Part shown: piece after piece, positions 4,505 to 21,806 of the stretch
How positions within the stretch are numbered: position 1 is the first letter of the stretch
Layout: the number at the start of each line of letters is the position of its first letter
Virus record (IMG/VR): IMGVR_UViG_3300030117_003910
Coordinates: 1 to 33,780 of that record
Strand: one strand, 5' to 3'
Source: a virus
DNA: 33,780 nucleotides
Notes under the pieces: generated by a model
The model's input: only the letters and a program-made list of their open reading frames with translations
What the model was told of the DNA's origin: nothing
Databases searched by the model: none
Translations under genes and position numbers: made by a program

Positions 4505-4922
4505 GTAATACACCTTTTAATTTCAGTATTTCTTCTAGCCCTTTTAGTGTCCTGTGCTGTTTGGTATCAACAATTGAAGCAATTCGCACGAAGGGATTGA
4601 GAGTATTGTTATGATTTAGATAATTCCAAGTATAGGGGGTTTCGCTAATGATAATATTTAGAACGCTCTGTATGTTTTTAATTCCTCTAACTGAGAGAAT
4701 CGGACTTTTTCTTCTTACCGATTCATTTCGTCTTACTTTACTTTCAACGCCATAAGTAGTCATGGCTCTGGCAATTCCACATAAAAAATCATATGATGGC
4801 ATTCTAATGTCTATTGCTAATTTAACGGCATATCCGATTCTCATTCTTTCATCCGATTGCACACGACAATGAAACTGTGCCTTGGAAAGTAAAATTCCCG
4901 TAAGCATCGCCCGACTAAACAT
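4482..4922 (-). CDS. decayed LAGLIDADG-like DNA-binding protein
   Basis: 146 residues, start supported by GGAG before ATG 4922. The segment LTGILLSKAQF (residues 7-17) lines up position for position with LAGLIDADGSF but lacks the catalytic acids. The rest (RIGYAVKLAIDIRMPSYDFL, GVESKVRRN, SPILSVRGIKNIQSVLNII) follows the strand/helix rhythm of a LAGLIDADG half-domain, including the typical L-x-V-x-G-x-x-N-I. It may be a homing-endonuclease fold kept as a DNA binder. It overlaps the ATPase gene by 23 bp. The family call is by eye and tentative. Confidence 0.55.
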   Translation of the reverse strand: MFSRAMLTGILLSKAQFHCRVQSDERMRIGYAVKLAIDIRMPSYDFLCGIARAMTTYGVESKVRRNESVRRKSPILSVRGIKNIQSVLNIIISETPYTWNYLNHNNTLNPFVRIASIVDTKQHRTLKGLEEILKLKGVLHGTHESQ

Positions 4923-5274
4923 TACTTTCAGTCTCCTTCATTCCCAGATATTGGGCTTTGTATCTTAAATATTCTAAGCCTTCAAGTATTGTTTTAGCCA
5001 CAACATCTTCGTCAATATCATTCTGAGCGATACCAAAAACCATTCTTGTTCCTTGATAACAATTAAGAAGGTTTGCTTTTTCTTCACAAATAGGTTCTAT
5101 AATTACGACAACTCTTTCTTTTATTATTTCCGTAGCGTGGACAATTCTATAATATAGTCCTTTATTTATAACTTCAATTTCTTCTTCATTTGGAGAACCA
5201 TATACGAAGAAGTTGAAAGTTCTTACTTTCTCAAACTTAGCGAGCAATTCATTTAATTCTGGATATAAAAACAA
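4915..5274 (-). CDS. hypothetical protein, 119 aa
   Basis: Acidic protein of alternating strands and helices (FNFFVYGSP, GLYYRIVHATEII, VVVIIEPI, then helices at the C-terminus). Not recognised. It seems to start at TTG 5274, eight bases after AAGGA, because no ATG occurs until well inside the protein. Its last bases overlap the next gene by 8 bp. Located between the histone-fold and LAGLIDADG-like genes. Confidence 0.65.
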   Translation of the reverse strand: MFLYPELNELLAKFEKVRTFNFFVYGSPNEEEIEVINKGLYYRIVHATEIIKERVVVIIEPICEEKANLLNCYQGTRMVFGIAQNDIDEDVVAKTILEGLEYLRYKAQYLGMKETESNV

Positions 5275-5279
5275 GATTA

Positions 5280-5732
5280 TCAGTCCTTAATATATTCTTC
5301 ATTCTTTTTCCAATATCCAGAAACTCTTTCGTTTGTCTCAAGCCAATGAATGTGGGCGGCGGTGATTCGGGCATCTCCACGCTCTAAGGCATTCTGTTCG
5401 GCATTGGTTATGACATTTGCTATGGCTGTTTCTACCCATTCATAGAGAAAGTTTTTTGCTGTTCTTGATATTTGAAGGTCGGTGGCATCCTTGATGATGG
5501 AAGTAATGTTTATCTTACTTCTTGTTCGTGGTCTTTTCTCTACTTTCTTTTCGGGGACAATCAACTTACCATTTTCCATATAGGGGCATTCTTTTACAGG
5601 GACTTTAGTTGGTCGCCCTTGGTCATGTAAAACATTCTTTAGGTGAGCGATTCCGTTTTCAATTTTGATGCAACGATAAGTATGTCTTTTTCCATTATTC
5701 ACTATAATAGTCAAATCACCAACTTTAATCAT
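5280..5732 (-). CDS. histone-fold protein with extra N-terminal beta domain
   Basis: 150 residues. Residues 74-133 read like an archaeal histone: short helix 1 with SIIKDAT (78-84, compare the histone motif I-I-K-D-A), loop LQISR, long helix 2 (about 90-118), loop GDARIT, helix 3 AAHIHWLE. The histone RD clamp is altered (R122, with H127 where Asp is usual). Residues 1-62 form an all-beta domain like KOW/SH3 barrels (VGDLTIIVNNGKRHTYRCIKI), joined by a basic linker KKVEKRPRTRSK. Likely a DNA-compacting or chromatin-mimicking protein. It overlaps the ligase gene by ATGA. Confidence 0.75.
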   Translation of the reverse strand: MIKVGDLTIIVNNGKRHTYRCIKIENGIAHLKNVLHDQGRPTKVPVKECPYMENGKLIVPEKKVEKRPRTRSKINITSIIKDATDLQISRTAKNFLYEWVETAIANVITNAEQNALERGDARITAAHIHWLETNERVSGYWKKNEEYIKD

Positions 5733-7273
5733 TCCATAGCCTCCAAATCTTTGAGCGTGTTAATATCTGCAACAAACTTATCATCACGAATACGCTTGCA
5801 TCGTGGAAATCTCAAACCAATATTATTTGAGGCATCCCTTGAGACTAAATCGGCTCTTACTTCAAGAACAACAACAGGGTTCACATTGTAAGAATTACCT
5901 TCATAGGAAACAATATTTCTTCGTAGAGTGTTTGTTAATGAAATTAAATCCATATCGCTAAAACCAGTTCCAACATATCCAATGCTTTGGAAACCATCCT
6001 CTGTTGCTACTCCCATTTCAAATGTAGCAAAGACATTTGATTTCTTTCCTTCACCGTATTGTGCTGAAAGAACCACCACATCAAGTTCAATCAAAGGTGG
6101 TTTGTATTTTGCCCAACCTTTTGAACGCTTCCCTGCTTCATAAGGAAGAGAAGCATCTTTTACAATAATACCTTCAAACCCTTCGTTGATTGCTACATTG
6201 TAGAAAGCCATCACATCTCCCCCTTCGGGCATTCGTTGTGCTTGGTCAGGATTGCCCTTAAATCGCTCAAGGCGTTGGTCATAGGGCAAGTCCATAATCG
6301 TCTCTCCAGCCCACTTTAGGCAGTCAAAAATGACCCATTTCACCTTGACTCTCTCCATGGCTTCCTCTACATTCTTTGAATGAACCCTCGTTCCCATCAG
6401 TTTATGTTCGGCAGGAGAACCGTCTTCATTAATTGGATAAATCTCTCCATCAAAAATGACATTATCAACTTCATAATTACGAACAACTTCTGCAATATCA
6501 GGGAATTGCTTTGAAACAATTTTTCCTTTACGATTAAAAATAATTACGGAGTCTCCTTCTTTATGAATTTGATAACGGTTTCCATCATACTTGAAATCAA
6601 CAATTTTCTTTACAGGCCACTTATTCATCGGCAAGTCTTTTGCTAACATGGGTTTGATAAAACCACCATGGCTCAAACTCATTTGTGGTTCTTCTCCCAT
6701 GTTGTAGTAGTTTGAAACTATATCCACAGAATTGAAGTTCAAATGCTTTTTAACATCAGTAATCTTCTTACGATAATAATGGGCAAGAATTTTCTCAACA
6801 GTTCCACGGTTGATTCCGTTTCGTGGTTTTCTCAACCAATACCGAACAAACCAACGGCGTTCATTTGCTGACATATTCAGCAACGCCTGTTCAATCATTA
6901 GGTATTCTTTAGAGTTAAACTTACCACAATTTAATTCAAGAAGGCGGTGAACATAGTTCACCGAATACTTTTTTTGTGTTTCTGCCGAGGGGTCTAGTTG
7001 ATAAACAACTTCTCCTAAATCATTATGTAAGTATAGTTCATTATCAATTTCATTATCAAACATATTAAAAATGCTTGAAATCCATTTCTTCGCTTTAGCC
7101 AACGCTATGCTGTTTGCTTTCAAAGAATCTTTATCTAAGATACAAAATACTGTATGCTTTGGGCTGGTTATAGTATTAAAACTCTCCATTCCCTCTGAAA
7201 ACATTTTTATCGTTTGAGTCGGTTTCATTCTGTTTGTTGCTTGTAGTAGCCTTGCTAGATTCGTCCATGCCAT
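5729..7273 (-). CDS. lig: ATP-dependent DNA ligase
   Basis: 514-residue ligase that seals nicks in duplex DNA. Motif I KYDGNR with adenylated Lys228; motif III FDGEIYP; motif IV EGIIVKD; motif V WAKYKP; and a C-terminal OB domain ending with VVLEVRADLVS and LRFPRCKRIRDDK. The N-terminal 220 residues fit the helical DNA-binding domain of archaeal/eukaryotic LigI-type enzymes, somewhat shorter than the cellular 550-600. AAGGAG ten bases before ATG 7273 supports this start, even though the preceding small ORF runs 98 bp into it. Confidence 0.95.
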   Translation of the reverse strand: MAWTNLARLLQATNRMKPTQTIKMFSEGMESFNTITSPKHTVFCILDKDSLKANSIALAKAKKWISSIFNMFDNEIDNELYLHNDLGEVVYQLDPSAETQKKYSVNYVHRLLELNCGKFNSKEYLMIEQALLNMSANERRWFVRYWLRKPRNGINRGTVEKILAHYYRKKITDVKKHLNFNSVDIVSNYYNMGEEPQMSLSHGGFIKPMLAKDLPMNKWPVKKIVDFKYDGNRYQIHKEGDSVIIFNRKGKIVSKQFPDIAEVVRNYEVDNVIFDGEIYPINEDGSPAEHKLMGTRVHSKNVEEAMERVKVKWVIFDCLKWAGETIMDLPYDQRLERFKGNPDQAQRMPEGGDVMAFYNVAINEGFEGIIVKDASLPYEAGKRSKGWAKYKPPLIELDVVVLSAQYGEGKKSNVFATFEMGVATEDGFQSIGYVGTGFSDMDLISLTNTLRRNIVSYEGNSYNVNPVVVLEVRADLVSRDASNNIGLRFPRCKRIRDDKFVADINTLKDLEAME

Positions 7274-8226: not shown

Positions 8227-8609
8227 CCCTGTTTAAATTTATCCAAATCCTGTCTTGATGTAAAGTACCGGGGCGTGTCTAAATCATCTAATCGGTTCAC
8301 AATCCAGCAAGCACCTCCAAGAGAAGAAACTTGAACAACTTCATATTGACCGTCATTTATTTCAAGGACTTCAACTGTATTTACTTCGGGGGTCAATCCA
8401 TATTTCTTGGTTAATTCCGTGGCAACTGTTCTAATATTCTCTGCCACATACTTGATGATGTGCGCCCTTTGGATAGGTATTTTCGGTTCAACATCAATCT
8501 TCAATGAACCCTTAAAATTACAAACTCTACATTTATTTCCTTCGCAAACAGGGCATCTAATTTGCGCCCTATGTGGTGCTGGAAAAACAACAGTTATTGC
8601 TTTCTTCAT
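8214..8609 (-). CDS. Zn-finger protein, 131 aa
   Basis: An N-terminal double knuckle CPVCEGNKCRVCNFKG (about residues 19-34) resembles a DnaJ-type zinc site with CxxC pairs. Then comes a helix (RAHIIKYVAENIRTVATEL) and a beta-rich C-terminus. It directly follows the GroEL gene with an ATGA overlap, so a DnaJ-like helper role is tempting, but no J domain or full cysteine-rich domain is present. Confidence 0.65.
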   Translation of the reverse strand: MKKAITVVFPAPHRAQIRCPVCEGNKCRVCNFKGSLKIDVEPKIPIQRAHIIKYVAENIRTVATELTKKYGLTPEVNTVEVLEINDGQYEVVQVSSLGGACWIVNRLDDLDTPRYFTSRQDLDKFKQGWMN

Positions 8610-10093
8610 TGTTCTCCCACCAATACTGCAACTTCCGTAGAATAGAACAATTGTGCAATTGACATGGCGGCAAGAAGGCTGTTCTTTGCAACCTTTACTG
8701 GGTCAAAGACTCCCTCTTCTTCCAAGTTAGCCATTTTACCTGTTAAGGCATTGAAGCCCATGGGATATTCTTCGGGAGGAACGGGGGATAGGTTGCTATT
8801 CTCAAAGAGTGCTTCATAAGGGGCGGTCATAGCGTCCTTAAACCAATTAGGCGCATCAATTCTCTGGGCAACCTCCATCAAAGCACGACCTCCACCAACA
8901 ACAATACCTTCTTCTAAAGCGGCTTTTGTTGCATTCAAGGCATCATCAAGGCGTTCCTTCTTCTCAAGCATTTCAATTGATGAAGAAGCACCGACCTTAA
9001 TTGTAGCAACCTTTCCACGAAGGCGAATGATACGGGACTTCAGGCGAGCCGCTTCAAATCCTTCCATAGATTTGACTTGCTCTTTTAGATAATTGATTCG
9101 TGAATAAGTCTCACCCTCGCCACCAACCAAAATTGTTCGCTCCTTTGAAATAATAACTCTCTCGCATTCTCCTAAATCGCTCTTAACAAACTGTGAGGCA
9201 CTATCCTTACTTTCTTCGGTGAAGACTTTACCGCCCATCAAACATTGAATGTCTCCTAACTCATCCAATTGTTGGTCGCCAAAGTTTGGTGCAAGAACAA
9301 CGGCACACTCCACGGTTTTGTTGATAATGTTTGCCAGTAGATTGTTCAATGCTGAACCATCCATTCCCTTACAGAAAATAACAAGTGGTCTGCTCTGATT
9401 TGCCGCATACTCCAACAATCCGATTATGTCCTTAAAGTTTCTAAACTTCATGTTTGACATGAACACTAAAGGATTTTCAAATATTGCTTTACCGTTGGGT
9501 TGATTCGCCATCAAATGGCTGATGTAGCCTTCGGGAATCTGCATTCCTTCTCTTACAATTAATTCTGTAATGTGGGTTTTTGATTCTTCAACAGTCAAAG
9601 CACCTTCACGGCCCACTTCTTGAATTCCTGCTTGAATTAAAGCACCGAGGTTTGGGTCATTGTTTGCCGCAATTGTAGCGACATTGAGAATATCATCATC
9701 CTCAATTTTAATTGACAATTCATCCAATCCCTCAAGCATTTTCACCTTCAAGTAATCCAGCGTCTCATAGAATTTGTGAGCATTCATTTCAGGCAATTGA
9801 GAAATCTTCGCACAAAGCATTCTCGCAAGAATACAAGCCGTTGTTGTTCCATCGCCCGAACCTTCTTGGGCTTTACTTGCTAAGTTTTGAACCAATTGCA
9901 CACCCATTTGAACATAAGGGTCTTCATGAGAGATATATTTTGTGATGGTCACGCCATCATTAATGACAATTGGTGGGTTGTTTTGCAGAATAACTGTTTT
10001 TGCTTGGGGACCAAGTGTTGGTTGAACCGTATTGGCAACCAAGTTAATTCCCTGCAATAGTTTTCTCTTTACTTCTTCTCCATTGATAATCAT
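8606..10093 (-). CDS. groEL: GroEL-like group I chaperonin
   Basis: 495 residues. The equatorial domain has NTVQPTLGPQ, INDGVTITK (Asp46) and GSGDGTTTA (Asp81); the apical domain shows IPEGYISH, PLVIFCKG and APNFGDQQLDELGDI; the C-terminal equatorial part has DALNATKAALEEGIVVGGG. These are group I (bacterial-type) signatures, not the thermosome type usual in archaea. It is shorter than E. coli GroEL (548) and lacks the GGM tail. Catalytic Asp residues are kept, so it is probably active. The GroES-like gene is directly upstream (ATGA overlap). Likely folds virion proteins. Confidence 0.92.
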   Translation of the reverse strand: MIINGEEVKRKLLQGINLVANTVQPTLGPQAKTVILQNNPPIVINDGVTITKYISHEDPYVQMGVQLVQNLASKAQEGSGDGTTTACILARMLCAKISQLPEMNAHKFYETLDYLKVKMLEGLDELSIKIEDDDILNVATIAANNDPNLGALIQAGIQEVGREGALTVEESKTHITELIVREGMQIPEGYISHLMANQPNGKAIFENPLVFMSNMKFRNFKDIIGLLEYAANQSRPLVIFCKGMDGSALNNLLANIINKTVECAVVLAPNFGDQQLDELGDIQCLMGGKVFTEESKDSASQFVKSDLGECERVIISKERTILVGGEGETYSRINYLKEQVKSMEGFEAARLKSRIIRLRGKVATIKVGASSSIEMLEKKERLDDALNATKAALEEGIVVGGGRALMEVAQRIDAPNWFKDAMTAPYEALFENSNLSPVPPEEYPMGFNALTGKMANLEEEGVFDPVKVAKNSLLAAMSIAQLFYSTEVAVLVGEQ

Positions 10094-10305
10094 TCCAACA
10101 CCGCCATAACCATTTCATAGGGAACAAACTTGAACCCATCATACTCTTGAATTGTTTTAGCCATAGAGAAAATGATTGTTTTACCAATCAATTCTTTATC
10201 GCAGGCACAGGACAATACCTTGCCCAAATTGTTTTCTTTCATGGTGATAATACCATGGCTTTGAACTTCTTGTTCAACAATTACAAAGTTGTTCATGGCC
10301 TTCAT
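10090..10305 (-). CDS. groES: minimal GroES-like co-chaperonin
   Basis: 71 residues from ATG 10305, after GGAGGAAGA and overlapping the upstream stop. NNFVIVEQEVQSHGIITM corresponds to the first strand and mobile loop of GroES; NLGKVLSCAC, IGKTIIFS and YEMVMAVLE match its G-x-V-L, V-G-D-x-V and final I-L-A-I-V-E positions. At 71 residues it is shorter than the usual 95, with trimmed loops. Together with GroEL it forms a complete two-gene unit. Confidence 0.8.
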   Translation of the reverse strand: MKAMNNFVIVEQEVQSHGIITMKENNLGKVLSCACDKELIGKTIIFSMAKTIQEYDGFKFVPYEMVMAVLE

Positions 10306-10580
10306 TCTTCTTCCTCCGTAGGAATGGCTATCCAAGCACGACGAGAATTTGAAACCCATGTGTAAATATGAGTTTTATAGAATTCTTTCAATTCTTTATC
10401 TCGCTTGGTTTTTCTGGACTTTGCCCATTGAATCCCTTTGTTTTCCCTTGGTTTGTTTTCATCGTTAGGATGCGCCTTTTGGTGGCGAGCCGTTCTTTGT
10501 TTTAGCGTTAAATTTTCAGCCTCTCTCATTGGCCTGTCCGGGTATTTTTTCGCAGTATCAAATCCTGTTTTTCTTGTCAT
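10302..10580 (-). CDS. hypothetical basic protein, 92 aa
   Basis: Very rich in Lys/Arg and low in hydrophobics until the end (HIYTWVSNSRRAWIAIP), then EEEE from the ribosome binding site of groES. Probably nucleic-acid binding or disordered. ATGA-type overlaps connect it to the JAMM gene upstream and groES downstream. Confidence 0.6.
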   Translation of the reverse strand: MTRKTGFDTAKKYPDRPMREAENLTLKQRTARHQKAHPNDENKPRENKGIQWAKSRKTKRDKELKEFYKTHIYTWVSNSRRAWIAIPTEEEE

Positions 10581-11275
10581 TCCTCTTCACCTCTTGGTCT
10601 TTGTTGTGTTTTTTCTGGTTCTCCATTTGCATAGATTTCAAGTTTATTTTTACTAAACTTGCTCCAAAAGCCATAGTGTCCTTTTGTGGACATTTGACTT
10701 CCAAGAACATATGCACAATTGATGTGTTCTTCCCAAATGTTGATTGTTCTCCAATCCGTTCCGCTAAAGTAGGCGGAACCAAATGGGTGAGTATGAATCC
10801 AACACTTGATAGGAAGTTTCATTCCAATGAGTGTTGATGGGTCAATTGTCAAATAATCAACATATCCAGCCGTACCAGTTGAAACATAAATGTCATTCTT
10901 TGAATCAATGACTGCTTGGACTTCAAGCCCCGGCAATATTTCAGTAGAAGCATACCAAATAGCATCATGCAAATCCAGAGAATGTTCAGCATCTTGAACA
11001 ACTGTAAAATCTTCCCAATTTACTGTTGATGTTGCTTCCATCAAACATCTATTCCATGCCTCTTCAACATAGCGAACTGCTTCAACTCGCCCTTCTTCAA
11101 TTTCCTTTCTTTTTTGTACGATTATTTTTGCTCTTTCTTTGTTATTCATATTTTTCACCTTTTCATTATTTTTTAACCATTCTTTATAGCCTTCTTCCAT
11201 CAACCATTCATCATATCCTGAATCGTCGTCATCATCGGGATTCTCCCGAATAAACCAATCCCCACTTTTGCTCAT
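10577..11275 (-). CDS. JAMM/JAB1-family metalloprotease (deubiquitinase-like)
   Basis: 232 residues. An acidic, helical N-terminus (1-85) precedes an MPN+ domain whose zinc motif is intact: H161-T-H163-P, S171, D174, i.e. HxHx(10)D. E118 in GLEVQAV is a candidate for the catalytic Glu. JAMM enzymes cut after the C-terminal glycine of ubiquitin-like proteins or trim their precursors. Two genes upstream is an E1-like enzyme and 4.5 kb upstream a beta-grasp protein ending GGSY, a fitting substrate. Alternative: a virion tail protease, as in phage tail protein K, but no NlpC/P60 domain is present. Confidence 0.88.
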   Translation of the reverse strand: MSKSGDWFIRENPDDDDDSGYDEWLMEEGYKEWLKNNEKVKNMNNKERAKIIVQKRKEIEEGRVEAVRYVEEAWNRCLMEATSTVNWEDFTVVQDAEHSLDLHDAIWYASTEILPGLEVQAVIDSKNDIYVSTGTAGYVDYLTIDPSTLIGMKLPIKCWIHTHPFGSAYFSGTDWRTINIWEEHINCAYVLGSQMSTKGHYGFWSKFSKNKLEIYANGEPEKTQQRPRGEEE

Positions 11276-11763
11276 TCTTCCCCACCTCGGAGGCGCATGA
11301 GTTTGTCGTTGAGTTTGTTCATTTTGGCGATTATACGCTTCTCCTTACGGCTTGAAGGAATCTTGGGTATGTAAGGTTCCTTTCGTTCTCGGACGGTCAT
11401 AGCGGCCTTCCTAACAAGTTCTATGTGAGTCAGTTCTGTGCTGTCAATCAATTGCTCAAGGCGACCAGCACATTCAGCATAACTGCAACCAAAATATCCT
11501 CGCACCTCATCAATGCTCATATCATAGAAATTAACCAGCAAGAAGAAATCTTTCTTCGCATCCCAACCCGATGAAGTTTGGGTTTCTTCGGCAATAACTT
11601 TAGTTTGTTGTAGTTTCTTCCACTTCATTTTTGTTGCGTGTGCTGAACGCTTATTTCCAGCAACGGATTCAACCGCATAAGCAACCGATTCAAATTCAGT
11701 CGCATTGGTAATCTTCAACAATAATTCCTCTTCTTCTTTTGTCCATTTTATTCCTCGGCTCAT
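11272..11763 (-). CDS. SANT/Myb-like protein ending in LMRLRGG-EE
   Basis: 163 residues. IKWTKEEEELLLKI ... ESVAYAVESVAGNKRSAHATKMKWKKL (5-52) looks like a SANT/Myb helical bundle; a second bundle follows (DFFLLVNFYDMSIDEV ... CAGRLEQLID). The basic C-terminus ends LMRLRGGEE, close to ubiquitin's LRLRGG with a two-residue extension. No beta-grasp fold is seen, and the GG-EE codons double as the ribosome binding site of the JAMM gene, so the likeness may be chance. It lies between the E1 and JAMM genes, ATGA-linked to both. Confidence 0.7.
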   Translation of the reverse strand: MSRGIKWTKEEEELLLKITNATEFESVAYAVESVAGNKRSAHATKMKWKKLQQTKVIAEETQTSSGWDAKKDFFLLVNFYDMSIDEVRGYFGCSYAECAGRLEQLIDSTELTHIELVRKAAMTVRERKEPYIPKIPSSRKEKRIIAKMNKLNDKLMRLRGGEE

Positions 11764-12317
11764 ACATTCACCACCATATATTCTCTAACTTCTTCGCCGT
11801 TAAACCAGCGTTGAATCCATTGTGCGCCCAATCCTGCAATTGCGACTTGCATGTAATGTACGCCTTTATTTGTTCCATCCCATGAATCTCCTTGACAACT
11901 AAACGACCCTTCTTCACCAGCCAAAAGCATATCATACATTTTCGGGTCTGCCTTATGCGACACAAGGGCGGCGTTCCTACCCTGCGCCCGTAAGTCTAAC
12001 CACTTAATGCTTGTGTTGTAAAGGGTTCGTCGCAACCCGATATTATCAACACAACAAATAACCAAATCATAATTTTGCATTTGTGATTCTGCAAGAATAG
12101 GATAGGTGCTTGCATGACTTACGGAGGAATATTCATCCCTCATCACCATGGCCTTGTTTTGCCCGACATGTCCCTTCTTAAAATTTTGATAAGATAAATT
12201 TTTATTTTCAACTTTATCCGGGTCTGCAACAGAAATCCGATATAATCCTGCTCTGTGTAAAATAGGAATTAGAAAACTTCCAATTCCGCCTGCTCCAATA
12301 ACTAATACTTTTCTCAT
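11760..12317 (-). CDS. E1-like (ThiF/MoeB-type) adenylating enzyme
   Basis: 185-residue Rossmann protein. The nucleotide loop GAGGIGS (8-14) is followed by ISVADPDKVENKNLSYQ (28-44), VGQNKA (51-56) and DLVICCVDN (84-92), the standard E1/ThiF order. The usual Arg of N-L-x-R-Q is Tyr43, and no CxxC zinc pairs are seen. Cys141 (FSCQGD) could be the catalytic thiol. It is a compact form (cellular MoeB/ThiF about 245). It would adenylate the Gly-Gly end of a ubiquitin-like protein; the candidate at 15768-15977 is in the same strand block. The TGA/ATG overlap at 11760-11763 leads into the SANT-like gene. Confidence 0.88.
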   Translation of the reverse strand: MRKVLVIGAGGIGSFLIPILHRAGLYRISVADPDKVENKNLSYQNFKKGHVGQNKAMVMRDEYSSVSHASTYPILAESQMQNYDLVICCVDNIGLRRTLYNTSIKWLDLRAQGRNAALVSHKADPKMYDMLLAGEEGSFSCQGDSWDGTNKGVHYMQVAIAGLGAQWIQRWFNGEEVREYMVVNV

Positions 12318-12319
12318 AT

Positions 12320-12457
12320 TTATTCCTCCTTAATTGCTCCACATTTTGTGCAAGTGTATTCAATTACTAATTCTTCAAATTTTACAGCATCAACGCCATA
12401 TCCTTCCCAAAAGGTATCAACATATCTGTCTGTTTCTTTCCAATCGTGTTCACACAT
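12320..12457 (-). CDS. small Zn-binding protein, 45 aa
   Basis: From ATG 12457, preceded by GAGGTGAATAAG. It has MCEHDW at the N-terminus and YTCTKCGAIKEE at the end, giving Cys, His and a CxxC, a likely single zinc site. A longer reading frame upstream lacks a ribosome binding site and overlaps the MazG gene, so it was not used. It ends two bases before the E1 gene. Confidence 0.6.
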   Translation of the reverse strand: MCEHDWKETDRYVDTFWEGYGVDAVKFEELVIEYTCTKCGAIKEE

Positions 12458-12467
12458 CTTATTCACC

Positions 12468-12791
12468 TCAAAACGATTTACCATGCATAAACTCACGGCT
12501 TTGATTGTATTCAATCTTAGCGAGAATCGCACCTGCTATATCTAAATCTTTACCAAAAGAATAGTCCATGATGCGAATAATCACATCTGCTAATTCCTCT
12601 TCAACACTATTAAATTCAATGATTTTATTTGAGGAAGGGTTATCGTTTCGCATGGCCTCCAATGCTTCTGATAATTCAGAATGCATCAGTGCAATTGCTT
12701 CACCGTCATTTCTCTCTTCTTTCCAAAAACCATGATTCACCGCATTGGTGTAGATTTTCTTTGCTAACTTATTCCATTCTTTTTCAAACAT
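12468..12791 (-). CDS. MazG-like NTP pyrophosphohydrolase
   Basis: 107 residues from ATG 12791 after GGTGA. ALMHSELSEALEAMRND gives the E-x-x-E half of the metal site and VEEELADVIIRIMDYS the E-x-x-D half, as in the all-alpha MazG/dUTPase-like fold. Such viral enzymes hydrolyse nucleotide triphosphates or alarmones, tuning nucleotide pools in infection. It overlaps the TFB gene by 8 bp. Confidence 0.85.
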   Translation of the reverse strand: MFEKEWNKLAKKIYTNAVNHGFWKEERNDGEAIALMHSELSEALEAMRNDNPSSNKIIEFNSVEEELADVIIRIMDYSFGKDLDIAGAILAKIEYNQSREFMHGKSF

Positions 12792-13653
12792 TTGTTTCAC
12801 CTATTTTATTTACATCCTTGCCTCTTAGTTGTTTTACCGAAGTTTTCCCAATCAAGGCTAAGAGGGACTTCGTTTGTTGATAAATATTCTTTTCATCAAA
12901 AGAACATAACTTGCTGATGTCTTTACGAGAAGGTTCTCTCCTTTCAAAGACATTTGTTGTTATCCAACAGATAGATGCATAGTAGCATTTTCCTTTAGTA
13001 AAGTTGCTATTGCTCACAATGTTCTCAAAGCGAGCAAGAACATCTAAACATTGTTTTAGATAATTTCTATCTTTAGTTATTTGAAGAACATGATATTCAA
13101 GTTGATATGCTGGATTGACTTCTGTATAGTTTATTTGATTTCTGTAAAGAGAATTCAACTTTCTTACAATTTTACGCACTCTTTTTGGATTCACTTGAAA
13201 TTCTCTCATAACTTCTTTCATAGGGATGGGTGTTCCTCTCTCTTTGAGAGCATAGAAAACAACCGCAGTTGCTCTGTCCTCATAAGAAAATTTACCAAAT
13301 ATTCCTTTACGATAGGCTTCCATGTAAATTTTATCAACTCTTTCTTTCAGAGAAGAAGAGGGTGAAAAGTTCGCCAAAACAATACGACAATGCGATAGTG
13401 CTTGACTGATGTTTTTAGGAATAATACTTGACTTTCCAAAGCGATTAAATTTATAGGAACCCTCTCCAGAAATCACCGAGCCTAAATATCCCTTATCTGC
13501 TGAACGGATGGATTGCCCGTCCTTCCCCATTGATAAAATCGTCTGTTCAAAAATTTCCTCAATGAGAATAAGACCACATTCATTACAAATGTGTTCGCCC
13601 ATTTCCTCATCAAAGGTTGAGTTTGCTGTTCCGCACTCTTCGCATTTCTTCAT
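12784..13653 (-). CDS. tfb: transcription factor B (TFIIB-like)
   Basis: 289 residues. An N-terminal zinc ribbon (Cys4, Cys7, Cys23, Cys26) is followed by a B-linker-like segment and two cyclin-like repeats (about 95-190 and 195-285, including DRATAVVFYALKERGTPIPMKEV and YYASICWITTNVFERREPSRKDISKL). TFB bridges TBP-bound promoters and RNA polymerase. The usual length is about 300. A virus-encoded TFB would steer host polymerase to viral promoters, for instance the TATA-like boxes near the ACCATATGGT elements; that link is inference. Confidence 0.92.
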   Translation of the reverse strand: MKKCEECGTANSTFDEEMGEHICNECGLILIEEIFEQTILSMGKDGQSIRSADKGYLGSVISGEGSYKFNRFGKSSIIPKNISQALSHCRIVLANFSPSSSLKERVDKIYMEAYRKGIFGKFSYEDRATAVVFYALKERGTPIPMKEVMREFQVNPKRVRKIVRKLNSLYRNQINYTEVNPAYQLEYHVLQITKDRNYLKQCLDVLARFENIVSNSNFTKGKCYYASICWITTNVFERREPSRKDISKLCSFDEKNIYQQTKSLLALIGKTSVKQLRGKDVNKIGETNV

Positions 13654-14809
13654 CTATATCAACCCTATTTTCATTTGGTTCAGAAAGAATATAACTTTTA
13701 ATTGTATGAACAATATTAATTGTCATGTTATCATTTAAAAGAGCCATCGCTCTTGCGGCGAATTGGTCGCCAATAGAAGAATCGTCATTTGCATTATCAA
13801 TGCAAATTGCACCAGACCATTGAGGCTCGTTTCCTTCCCCGCTTCTTCTCGTCGGTTGCCAAACATATGTTGAAACATTCTGTGTTCCCGTTGATTTAAA
13901 GTTTTGACAAACCAGCATCCAATCATAACCATTACCACGAACAAACATTGTTGTTAATTGATTATCAGAATTCCAGACTGGGAAAAACCTATCTGGTCTT
14001 TGTTCAACCATTTCATTAATTAGTTCGTATGCTCTTTTTTCTACAATGTCTTGTTTTCTATTCTGTTGTAGAAAAGCAATCATAAGATTCAATTCTGCAT
14101 TGGTTGGTTCACGACCTATTAATTTTACAAATAAATTCCTAGGAGAGGTATAAGGCCAAGAACCTCTTTTTTGACCATGCACATAGAAATTACAATAACG
14201 GTCTAATTCTTTAAAAGAAATTTCTCCCCAAACGCCATCGCTTATTTCAATGGCGCATGTAGTTGGCCCTATCCTTTGAACATTCAGCCGAACATCGTGC
14301 TTTTCATAATCATTGAAGAAAAAGAAAGGCAAACGGTTTTCTAAAACATACGAAACATTCTCTGGAATATTTAAGCAAGACCAAAGAAATCTGTTGAGTT
14401 CAGCCTTGCAATCTGTAAAACAACTACGATAAAGGACTCTCGCAATAACATCACACATATTATCTAATGACAAATAAATTCCATTAATTGTGTGTCTTCC
14501 AGACTTCTTTTGAAAGAAGATAGAAAAATCTTTTATAGAAATAGTAGCAGAGACAGTGGATGGGATATGGCCTTTTCTGCCACCATATCTTGTCGTTCTT
14601 GGTTTAACGAAAATTGATTTTAATTGGCTTTTAATTCCCTCATGCAGAGGGTCTTTTGATTTAAAACCTGCTCTGCTCATATTTAGAACTGCTCTTCCAT
14701 TTTCCTTAAAGAAACGATTAGTAATGTGTTTAAAAATATCACTACTCATTGTAGTATTATAGTATTCATTTGTATCGTTTGGCTTTTTTATTCTTACATC
14801 AAATTCCAT
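13610..14809 (-). CDS. hypothetical protein, 399 aa
   Basis: Not recognised. An N-terminal region rich in Arg/Lys (VKPRTTRYGGRKGHIPS), a middle alpha/beta region with aromatic clusters (LPFFFFNDYEKHDV, NFYVHGQKRGSWPY) and a strand-rich C-terminal third. It ends in a charged helix whose last 44 bp overlap the TFB start. No transmembrane segment or obvious nucleotide site. Large for this block, so probably an important enzyme or DNA-binding protein. Confidence 0.75.
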   Translation of the reverse strand: MEFDVRIKKPNDTNEYYNTTMSSDIFKHITNRFFKENGRAVLNMSRAGFKSKDPLHEGIKSQLKSIFVKPRTTRYGGRKGHIPSTVSATISIKDFSIFFQKKSGRHTINGIYLSLDNMCDVIARVLYRSCFTDCKAELNRFLWSCLNIPENVSYVLENRLPFFFFNDYEKHDVRLNVQRIGPTTCAIEISDGVWGEISFKELDRYCNFYVHGQKRGSWPYTSPRNLFVKLIGREPTNAELNLMIAFLQQNRKQDIVEKRAYELINEMVEQRPDRFFPVWNSDNQLTTMFVRGNGYDWMLVCQNFKSTGTQNVSTYVWQPTRRSGEGNEPQWSGAICIDNANDDSSIGDQFAARAMALLNDNMTINIVHTIKSYILSEPNENRVDIDEEMRRVRNSKLNL

Positions 14810-14813
14810 TGTA

Positions 14814-14975
14814 TCACATCATGTATATCTTACTGTTATCTTTATTGCATTCATCATGCATTTCATTTCTAATTTCATTGGGAGAGTATAGTTTTTTTCC
14901 GCATACTCGGCAGATGGTGGCAACTTTGTTGCCTTTTCTATTGTTATAAATATATTCAGGATTTTTTTCTTTCAT
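14814..14975 (-). CDS. small zinc-finger protein, 53 aa
   Basis: Start ATG 14975 lies inside the last codons of the upstream gene. Residues 22-25 form CxxC (ICRVCGKKLYSP) and residues 40-43 give H-x2-C (MHDEC), a C2HC zinc finger like those of treble-clef proteins. Function unknown, possibly nucleic-acid binding. Confidence 0.65.
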   Translation of the reverse strand: MKEKNPEYIYNNRKGNKVATICRVCGKKLYSPNEIRNEMHDECNKDNSKIYMM

Positions 14976-15315
14976 AATTAAGCCCCAATCTATTCTTAAT
15001 TATAATTCTGTCTTCACATATTTTACATTTTTCGCCCAAACAATTTTTATTGTGATAGGCTAAAACATCTTCATATTCTTTCATCTTTCTTAACATATAT
15101 TTATTGAATCCTTCATCTACTGCTTCTTTGTTATGCCAAAGACAGTCATATATTGTTTGAGTAAGAGAGAACTCGTTGAAATAAATTTCGTCATTTTTGG
15201 CGATGCTTGCCCATCTAGTGATTTTTGAGAATTGCTGAGGATTCATGTCAATGAATATTTTTACGCATGAACTTATGAGGTCATTTGTAGTTAATCTTTT
15301 CTTCAAGACTAACAC
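14956..15315 (-). CDS. hypothetical protein with C-terminal Cys cluster
   Basis: 119 residues, mainly helical, with HNKNCLGEKCKICEDR (about 89-104) suggesting a zinc site. The start could be GTG 15315, which overlaps the upstream stop, or TTG 15306, which has AGGTG at better spacing. Function unknown. Confidence 0.65.
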   Translation of the reverse strand: MLVLKKRLTTNDLISSCVKIFIDMNPQQFSKITRWASIAKNDEIYFNEFSLTQTIYDCLWHNKEAVDEGFNKYMLRKMKEYEDVLAYHNKNCLGEKCKICEDRIIIKNRLGLNYERKKS

Positions 15316-15689
15316 CTAAATTTCTTACGCATGGGAATAGTTTGTAGGTTATCAAAAAAGTAAAGGCTTTCTTTGCCGTCTTTTGTTAGAACCCACTCCT
15401 TTTCTGCTAAGAAATTCCATTTGTCATAATCGTTAATCGCATATTTCCATTTATTCAATAACTCCTCAACAGAATTAAAATCTTGGTTTTTGTATCTAAT
15501 AATAGTGTAGCCTTTTGCCCAAATATAACCATGTTTTGCTAAAGCAATAACATGATTATTTTGATAAAAGTCTGGTTTGAATATCGCAACATCTTCATGT
15601 ATATACGGGTTCATCATTTTCCACCCTAAAACATTAAGGTGGATTTTGAGGGCTTCGGGTGCAATAAAGTGCTTAAAGTCGGGCTTCAT
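15309..15689 (-). CDS. hypothetical protein, 126 aa
   Basis: Aromatic-rich small protein with strands and helices (DVAIFKPDFY, IALAKHGYIWAKGYTIIRYKNQDF, VEELLNKWKYAI) and a basic end MRKKFRC. Not recognised. GTG 15692 is an alternative start. Its frame is open back to the TGA of the ubiquitin-like gene, but with no start or ribosome binding site there, so the two are taken as separate genes. Confidence 0.65.
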   Translation of the reverse strand: MKPDFKHFIAPEALKIHLNVLGWKMMNPYIHEDVAIFKPDFYQNNHVIALAKHGYIWAKGYTIIRYKNQDFNSVEELLNKWKYAINDYDKWNFLAEKEWVLTKDGKESLYFFDNLQTIPMRKKFRC

Positions 15690-15767
15690 CACCCAAAAAA
15701 GGGGATGCCTCCATGTGGTTGGGACATGGCGACACCCCCGAAGGTATAGGAAACAACCGTTGAAGAC

Positions 15768-15977
15768 TCAATAGGAGCCTCCAACAATTGCGGGAGTCAA
15801 GTCCACAGATTGAACCGTGTCCCAGTTGATTTCGTTAATTCCCTCACGGGCAACCATTTCACCATCCACGAAAACCCAATGGGTTGGGTGCGTATGGATG
15901 TTTTCAATGACTTCCGAAGCCTCAAGGCTTAGGGTCGTGTGTCCAGTTTCGTTCAAAATTCGTAGTGTAATCATCAT
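15768..15977 (-). CDS. ubiquitin-like beta-grasp protein ending in Gly-Gly-Ser-Tyr
   Basis: 69 residues from ATG 15977 after AAGGAAGTGAG (a GTG at 15983 lies within that region). Predicted order: strand ITLRILN, strand TTLSLEA, helix SEVIENI, strand HWVFVDGEMVA, then WDTVQSVDLTPAIVGG. The end matches the MoaD/ThiS pattern D-x-V-x-L-x-P-x-V-x-GG; Gly66-Gly67 are followed only by Ser-Tyr. A modifier or sulfur carrier would need that dipeptide removed (the JAMM enzyme at 10577-11275) and then E1 activation (11760-12317). Alternative: a MoaD-like sulfur donor without protein conjugation. Confidence 0.75.
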   Translation of the reverse strand: MMITLRILNETGHTTLSLEASEVIENIHTHPTHWVFVDGEMVAREGINEINWDTVQSVDLTPAIVGGSY

Positions 15978-18022: not shown

Positions 18023-18099
18023 TGGCGGGCGTAGGAGGATTTGAACCCCCGGTTTCGGCTTAGAAGGCCGAAGTGTTATCCAAACTACACTATACGCCC
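18023..18099 (-). tRNA. tRNA-Arg (anticodon TCT), CCA encoded
   Basis: Cloverleaf read by eye on the minus strand: acceptor GGGCGTA/TACGCCC, anticodon stem TCGGC/GCCGA with loop CTTCTAA, anticodon TCT (reads AGA), T arm with GGTTCAAATCC. The discriminator G is followed by CCA. It decodes AGA, the dominant Arg codon in the right-hand gene block. Confidence 0.93.
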
Positions 18100-18512: not shown

Positions 18513-18629
18513 TTAATCACCATCATATGGTTGATAGTAAGCAATTCTACCACATATTGCACATTTGCATTTATTTTGACCAAGTTTAAAGTCAAGTATT
18601 TCCATAAATTCATCACAACAGTATATCAT
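18513..18629 (-). CDS. 38-residue Cys-rich peptide
   Basis: Encodes an N-terminal YCCDE and a central CKCAICGR, so four or five Cys suited to one zinc site, ending YDGD. ATG 18629 overlaps the end of the upstream gene by 4 bp; GGAG lies just before it. Function unknown. Confidence 0.55.
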   Translation of the reverse strand: MIYCCDEFMEILDFKLGQNKCKCAICGRIAYYQPYDGD

Positions 18630-19267
18630 TCTTTCATCTCCACTAATAGTATTTTTGGGTTTCGTGCATTGTATTCTCGCACATATTCATTGTATTTGAT
18701 AGCATATTGGTTTGAAGGAAACCATTCTGGTCGCCGGTCTTTTTTCCAATCAGCAAACCTCCATTTGCCTTCAAGGTAATAGTGGCGATAAGACTGAATG
18801 ACAAACTCCCATTCAGTCAGAAAAGTGTTGGGTATTCTGTACTCATCGGCCATAGCAATAGATACTGGCGAGGCTTCTTTCCAACAGCCATCTTTCATAA
18901 AATGGTCGCCCCATGTTTGGAGAATACGGGCATAAGTCCCGTGAGTTTTACCATATCGGTAAGTATATTCTTCACAAAGAGCAAGTGCATGTTGCATAAG
19001 CCAATCAGCATTGTGTGGATTCTGTCTCGCCCAAATGGTTGAGGGGTGGTTGAGCATGGCTGGTTTCATCAGTTTTGATTGAGAACAGGCATGAAATTGT
19101 TTCAAATCACGCAAAGCAGGTTCTTTTCCATACTTCGCAAGATACTGAAAGTAAAGTGCATTTGTGTGAATCATTTGACAACTCTCGGTTGGCATTTTGA
19201 CCACATGTTTGTCCAGCATTTGTCGTGCCGCTTCAACAGGGTTTTTTGATAAAGCAAAGATGTTCAT
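18626..19267 (-). CDS. conserved phage-type protein with DKHVVKM motif
   Basis: 213 residues. Motifs NIFALSKNPVEAARQMLDKHVVKMPTE at the start, HPSTIWARQN, ALALCEEYTYRYGKTH and PEWF near the end match a family I know from many marine phages, whose function is unknown to me. Conserved His and Glu residues hint at an enzyme. GGTGGAAGA precedes ATG 19267. Confidence 0.8.
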   Translation of the reverse strand: MNIFALSKNPVEAARQMLDKHVVKMPTESCQMIHTNALYFQYLAKYGKEPALRDLKQFHACSQSKLMKPAMLNHPSTIWARQNPHNADWLMQHALALCEEYTYRYGKTHGTYARILQTWGDHFMKDGCWKEASPVSIAMADEYRIPNTFLTEWEFVIQSYRHYYLEGKWRFADWKKDRRPEWFPSNQYAIKYNEYVREYNARNPKILLVEMKE

Positions 19268-21713: not shown

Positions 21714-21722
21714 ATGTGTAAG

Positions 21723-21806
21723 TGCTAAGGGCAGGATTTGAACCTGCGAACCATTACGGACAGGAGTTTAAGCCCTGCGCGTTTAACCATGCTCCGCCAC
21801 CTTAGC
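21723..21806 (-). tRNA. tRNA-Leu (anticodon TAA)
   Basis: Acceptor GCTAAGG/CCTTAGC, anticodon stem CAGGG/TCCTG with loop CTTAAAC (anticodon TAA, reads TTA), a long variable arm as in Leu tRNAs and T arm GCAGG-TTCAAAT-CCTGC. CCA is not encoded, unlike the tRNA-Arg. TTA is the favoured Leu codon of the right-hand genes. Confidence 0.92.

Follow-up and report, generated by a model that had tools for sequence, protein, structure and literature searches.

Here we describe a gene set on the minus strand of a virus record in IMG/VR (IMGVR_UViG_3300030117_003910), the window being the whole 33,780-base record, positions 1 to 33,780. The set encodes a small modifier with a Gly-Gly motif near its C-terminus, an E1-like adenylating enzyme, a JAMM protease, and a 399-amino-acid (aa) protein with a candidate E2-like domain. 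As known here from sequences and predicted structures, these genes probably constitute a complete ubiquitin-like (Ubl) conjugation and deconjugation system that is virus-encoded and core to magrovirus-type viruses. A first-pass annotation had placed the modifier, E1 and JAMM open reading frames (ORFs) on this strand, where we also find them:

15768..15977, minus strand: ubiquitin-like modifier precursor, 69 aa (predicted beta-grasp, invariant GG)
13610..14809, minus strand: candidate E2/UBC-like protein, 399 aa (predicted structure, invariant Cys336)
11760..12317, minus strand: E1-like (ThiF) adenylating enzyme, 185 aa (PF00899, 3e-19)
10577..11275, minus strand: JAMM/MPN+ metalloprotease, 232 aa (Prok-JAB in homologues, invariant catalytic set)

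Components of the viral locus

Translation of the modifier may start at ATG 15977 (69 aa) or at GTG 15983. Its C-terminus reads ...VDLTPAIVGGSY, with Gly66-Gly67 encoded at 15777-15782 and a Ser-Tyr tail at 15771-15776, and the protein contains 0 Lys and 0 Cys. AlphaFold2 models were made for the modifier and for the 399-aa protein. The modifier model (pLDDT 90.6) has the element order b-b-a-b-b-a-b, which is that of ubiquitin (strands 3-9 and 12-18, helix 20-29, strands 33-37 and 40-42, helix 44-49, strand 57-62), and ends in a loose, flexible tail of low confidence that carries the Gly-Gly. Fold matches in the PDB, obtained with Foldseek and a second aligner, comprise ubiquitin, MoaD, SUMO, ISG15 and the Caldiarchaeum ubiquitin (a chain from its complex with Rpn11), as well as a bacterial Ubl bound to a deubiquitinase or E1-E2; the scores are modest (Foldseek E 5e-3, Z 5-6), and the rows agree with each other. 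The 69-aa protein is predicted to adopt a beta-grasp fold, on which the first-pass annotation had staked its reading beforehand. At the sequence level, searches with the modifier against Pfam, PHROGs, NCBIfam, PADLOC and PDB sequences gave no significant match.

The motif VGG is present near the C-terminus in 85/85 distinct homologues, as had been anticipated for the Gly-Gly, and is followed by no residue (18 sequences), one (8) or two (59), the tails being of many different kinds. Both Gly positions use all four synonymous codons across the homologues, and the Gly-Gly is therefore conserved at the protein level. Lysine accounts for 1.2% of the modifier family, compared with 5-8% of the partner proteins, and 57 of 62 modifiers contain at most one. 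This scarcity would hinder the formation of lysine-linked chains and suggests the attachment of single tags.

The E1-like enzyme scores 69.5 bits (3e-19) against the ThiF family (PF00899, cut-off 28.1), in line with its initial identification from the GAGGIGS motif. GAGGIGS, Asp32, Asn40, Lys55 and Asp91 are conserved, so that the Rossmann-type ATP-binding GxGGxG and the Asp/Lys/Asp set are present. Profile alignment by hhalign against four ThiF proteins of the PRTRC cluster of bacterial plasmids gives 99.3% (8.5e-21) over residues 3-172, matching the enzyme end to end, and the candidate catalytic Cys141 (codon 11895-11897) aligns with the Cys conserved in the 'SC' motif of PRTRC. Scores against the named models lie far below their cut-offs, both for PRTRC ThiF (NCBIfam TIGR03736, 44.7 bits, cut-off 144.75) and for UbaA (32.1 bits, cut-off 450), and the enzyme is not assigned to the UbaA type.

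The JAMM protease of the window scores 20.5 bits against Pfam Prok-JAB, under the cut-off of 25, while 50/62 of its homologues match this family at E<=0.01. The intact catalytic motif noted in the first pass extends to the family, Glu118, His161, His163, Ser171 and Asp174 (the Glu plus HxHx7SxxD set) being invariant in 62 sequences, and the best PDB sequence match of the JAMM profile is the deubiquitinase AMSH-like protease (3.4e-4). The enzyme had been proposed to remove the Ser-Tyr tail of the modifier. As its only task this does not hold, since 34 loci combine a modifier that has no residue after Gly-Gly with an intact JAMM HxH..S..D motif; trimming alone does not explain its retention, which points to a putative role in deconjugation as well.

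The 399-aa protein, whose gene sits between those of the modifier and E1 in every locus with sufficient flank, contains a candidate E2/UBC-like C-terminal domain (residues about 250-386, 13652-14062). Conservation in the protein is highest along W.GPICIDN...GDQF..RALALLND, in which Cys336 (codon 13802-13804), Asp338 and Asn339 are invariant in 70/70 sequences of the family. In the AlphaFold2 model (pLDDT 87.1), a helix at 252-270 is followed by five strands, Cys336 directly after the fifth, and helices from 346. Cys336 thereby lies 17 residues past the fourth strand and 10 ahead of the next helix, a spacing like that of E2s, which in the model corresponds to the position of the UBC catalytic Cys. 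The best 50 rows of the second aligner (VIA), covering residues 250-386, are all E2 chains or the E2-fold protein FANCL (E2/UBC-RWD group), and a weak profile alignment with eukaryotic E2s sets Cys336 on the catalytic Cys of UBE2D2. A search of a viral structure library yielded three close but unnamed relatives of the protein and no named E2. No convincing match was found in a Pfam scan of 70 family members, and none at all in a PDB sequence search. An E2-like role for the 399-aa protein is likely, given its modelled domain and invariant Cys, and the earlier statement that no E2 is visible is probably wrong.

Distribution of the gene set

The four genes were followed from three anchors, whose contigs overlap, so that the samples are not independent. 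From the modifier, E1, JAMM and the 399-aa protein are found in 142/142 loci with at least 9 kb downstream; from E1, the modifier and the 399-aa protein are found in 127/127 loci with at least 7.3 kb upstream. The third anchor, a syntenic ORF of the window named as an ATP-dependent DNA ligase from its own sequence, gives E1 in 35/35 and JAMM in 37/37 loci where the flank allows. Each locus in which the modifier, E1 or JAMM seems absent ends too near the gene, and where the flank allows no genome has E1 and JAMM without the modifier, as the first-pass proposal of a shared pathway had implied. The set seems to belong to the core genome of magrovirus-type archaeal viruses.

Two other explanations were considered and rejected. 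Ascertainment by the query gene does not account for the association, which the ligase anchor reproduces, and chance or artefact is set aside by conservation in over 100 viral loci. Among 45 long records, no convincing second copy of the modifier is seen, except in IMGVR_UViG_3300021958_000021 (184,733 bp), which has two whole, differing modifier blocks ~93 kb apart and has the appearance of two magrovirus genomes joined together.

In 84,980 species genomes scanned with the modifier, matches were confined to three contigs of one metagenome-assembled genome (MAG), 'Altibacter sp. EAC109' (NZTP01000030, 27, 16). A host origin of the modifier was rejected, as the contigs of this sole cellular match resemble the present virus and are probably mis-binned; one of them is 99-100% identical to the window across shared genes. 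The same scan bears on a different reading, in which the modifier serves as a decoy or antagonist, occupying or blocking the SAMP/E1/JAMM machinery of the host, or in which the main work of the viral JAMM is to free viral proteins of host SAMP tags. A precedent is offered by archaeal mobile elements with expanded JAMM families (Borg elements), whose JAMM proteins were proposed as deSAMPylases (PMC12660748). However, the scan of cellular genomes revealed no member of the modifier family outside the MAG with virus contigs, and wherever the flank is long enough the viruses encode a dedicated modifier and E1 of their own, neither of which would be needed for pure stripping. We regard such antagonism as improbable.

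Proposed pathway and related systems

In the first step of the proposed conjugation pathway, JAMM would cut off the 0-2 residues past Gly-Gly to produce the mature modifier, by analogy with the Caldiarchaeum Rpn11 and ubiquitin (PMC6043591). E1 would then adenylate the Gly-Gly carboxylate and hold the modifier as a thioester on Cys141. In the third step, the modifier would be transferred to Cys336 of the E2-like protein and from there onto lysines of host or viral proteins. JAMM may also strip the attached modifier, as its retention where no trimming is needed would suggest. A more tentative extension, to which we give slightly less than an even chance, is that this four-part pathway is core to an entire order of viruses of archaea and is used to tag proteins of the infected host. 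Tagged host regulators might then be sent to the proteasome of the cell, with the virus providing a TFIIB-like factor (TFB) of its own.

The main alternative is a sulfur relay, in which JAMM trims and E1 adenylates the modifier, whose thiocarboxylate then donates sulfur to e.g. a tRNA or a metabolite, like the carriers ThiS and MoaD. MoaD is near the top of the modifier fold matches (ThiS is lower down), the viral E1 consists of a ThiF/MoeB-type domain and lacks E1 accessory domains, and clusters of JAMM, ThiS-like and E1 genes with sulfur-metabolism genes have been described (PMC1779556). The window proteins scanned, on the other hand, include no recognisable sulfurtransferase, rhodanese, cysteine desulfurase or sulfur-acceptor enzyme. 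By its profile the E1 resembles the PRTRC class, whose members are linked with E2-like proteins; a candidate E2 with an invariant Cys is present in every locus with enough flank, and JAMM is kept even without a need for trimming. A sulfur relay is on this evidence unlikely.

Several observations weigh against the conjugation pathway itself. The VIA Z scores of the E2 rows (4.8-5.9) fall in a range where common arrangements can score, and their Foldseek E-values exceed 0.1. Using hhalign, the 399-aa profile gives non-significant values of 2.4% against six eukaryotic E2s (the sequence of one, UBE2D2, being checked against the PDB) and 0.1% against three PRTRC B proteins; the profile comparisons also drew on sequences of ubiquitin and NEDD8. 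No RING or other E3 was recognised. The viral E1 is very short (185 aa), and its canonical NxxRQ catalytic Arg is replaced by a Tyr43 that is invariant in 44 sequences, the position being occupied by Arg in four PRTRC E1s and by Gly in two crAss-like E1s of an alignment that also included MoeB. In addition, TFB (140/142 loci) and GroEL (134/142) are nearly as constant as the set, so that co-occurrence indicates a core gene set and not a functional link.

Systems of this kind are already known, including bacterial operons of several types with Ubl, E2-like, JAB and E1 proteins (PMC1779556), the Caldiarchaeum operon, SAMP, Bil and CBASS. The PRTRC cluster contains the same four kinds of component as the viral set (C, Ubl-like; B, E2-like; A, JAB; and the ThiF E1), and the GxVCxG motif of PRTRC B is comparable to that of the viral 399-aa protein. 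It differs in that its E1 keeps the catalytic Arg and its C protein has one terminal Gly and no tail, and neither the viral modifier nor the 399-aa protein matches PRTRC C or B significantly in sequence.

In the ubiquitin operon of Caldiarchaeum subterraneum (ubiquitin, E1, E2, RING and Rpn11), the precursor, like the viral modifier, extends past Gly-Gly, and is cut there by the JAMM enzyme CsRpn11, which also deconjugates (PMC6043591). This system differs in being cellular, in the longer tail of its precursor and in having a RING E3 (PMC5654768). The SAMP, UbaA and HvJAMM1 proteins of Haloferax also combine an archaeal beta-grasp Gly-Gly modifier with an E1 and a JAMM enzyme, and no E2 is known in this system. 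Bil, CBASS Cap2/Cap3 and 6A-MBL are further prokaryotic systems with conjugation machinery, and the PADLOC E1-E2 models match the viral E1 through their E1 half only. Cap2-type proteins join E1 and E2 in one chain and serve host defence, whereas here the 185-aa E1 is separate and the carrier is a virus.

Among bacterial tailed phages, a virus-encoded E1 adjoins a JAB gene in crAss-like phages (Bacteroides phage DAC15 gp050/gp051). These differ from the present locus in that no Gly-Gly modifier was recognised beside the JAB and E1 genes, and in that their E1 has a long N-terminal extension and a domain that aligns well only in part. The adjacent genes lie at 4551-6660 in DAC15 and at 4598-6654 in a second record, and their annotation is either hypothetical or 'thiamine biosynthesis protein'. 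Next to them, gp048 and gp049 may also belong to a similar pathway; the 399-aa profile gave nothing significant against gp049.

The apparent novelty is that such a set seems to be carried across an entire order of archaeal viruses and includes a modifier family unmatched by the libraries searched. In the literature covered, which is partial, ubiquitin, ThiF, JAB and JAMM are not mentioned in the magrovirus papers PMC10160649, PMC8651126 and PMC5628999, nor such genes in the profiles of the International Committee on Taxonomy of Viruses (ICTV; PMC10768690 and PMC12999244).

Viruses commonly hijack host ubiquitin-like machinery. A virus order with its own modifier, E1, probable E2 and deconjugase would reverse this usual picture, make viruses a further source in the evolution of ubiquitin-like systems, and allow a virus to label proteins inside the infected cell. 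The gene set is small, conserved and simple to express, leaving the proposal open to direct laboratory test.

Neighbouring genes and the carrier virus

Further genes lie between and beyond the four components:

12784..13653, minus strand: virus-encoded TFB (TFIIB-like), syntenic neighbour (Zn_Ribbon_TF 4.4e-7; PRK00423 6.6e-10)
12468..12800, minus strand: MazG-like pyrophosphatase, syntenic neighbour (phrog_3301 2.1e-30)
11272..11763, minus strand: 163-aa protein between E1 and JAMM, weakly Myb/SANT-like (PF13921 15.8 bits, below cut-off)
10302-10580, minus strand: next ORF beyond JAMM (4-base overlap with JAMM)
8606..10093, minus strand: GroEL-like chaperonin, downstream of JAMM (tblastn to annotated phage chaperonins, e.g. 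1e-82; synteny)

Overlaps of 4 bases chain E1, the 163-aa ORF, JAMM and the next ORF, which may be translationally coupled; groES and groEL come after this overlapping run on the same strand. TFB is taken here as a syntenic neighbour of the set and not as a component of the pathway.

This genomic context bears on one more explanation, namely that the modifier and JAMM serve virion morphogenesis as a Ubl and JAB pair, like TAPI/TAPK in lambda tail assembly. Such pairs exist in lambdoid and T1-like phages (PMC1779556). The genes described here instead sit among genes for replication, transcription and chaperones (TFB, MazG, ligase, RFC) and include an E1, and a Pfam scan found no NlpC/P60 match in JAMM. 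A function in tail assembly is highly improbable.

By gene content, the window is called a magrovirus-like fragment of an archaeal tailed virus. It codes for a TFIIB-like factor, an archaeal/eukaryotic-type clamp loader (RFC), a UvrD-like helicase and GroEL, and its relatives attain 90-100 kb and carry a family B polymerase (PolB). PolB family matches occur in 10/10 long relatives tested, at two places in 9/10, which agrees with the PolB-NTD/CTD labels given for Aoguangviridae, order Magrovirales (PMC10768690). The ICTV gene content of Magrovirales (split PolB, ATP-dependent ligase, clamp loader, GroEL/GroES, TFB, about 90-100 kb; PMC10768690) is likewise found. The assignment is drawn from gene content and synteny of the window and relatives.

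Other ORFs of the window include one at 18626-19267 (minus strand) that matches pyrimidine dimer DNA glycosylase (PF03013, 2.7e-7), and a 150-aa ORF at 5280-5732 (minus strand) whose C-terminal part weakly matches the histone fold (PF00808, E 0.0011, below cut-off), possibly a viral histone-like protein. The presumed hosts, through the published association of magroviruses, are Poseidoniales, which are among the most abundant archaea of marine surface waters; to our knowledge, magroviruses are known from metagenomes only. The window also encodes tRNA-Arg(TCT) and tRNA-Leu(TAA), at 18023-18099 and 21722-21806 (-), and a magrovirus tRNA-Arg(TCT) was reported to be identical to a Marine Group II gene (PMC5628999).

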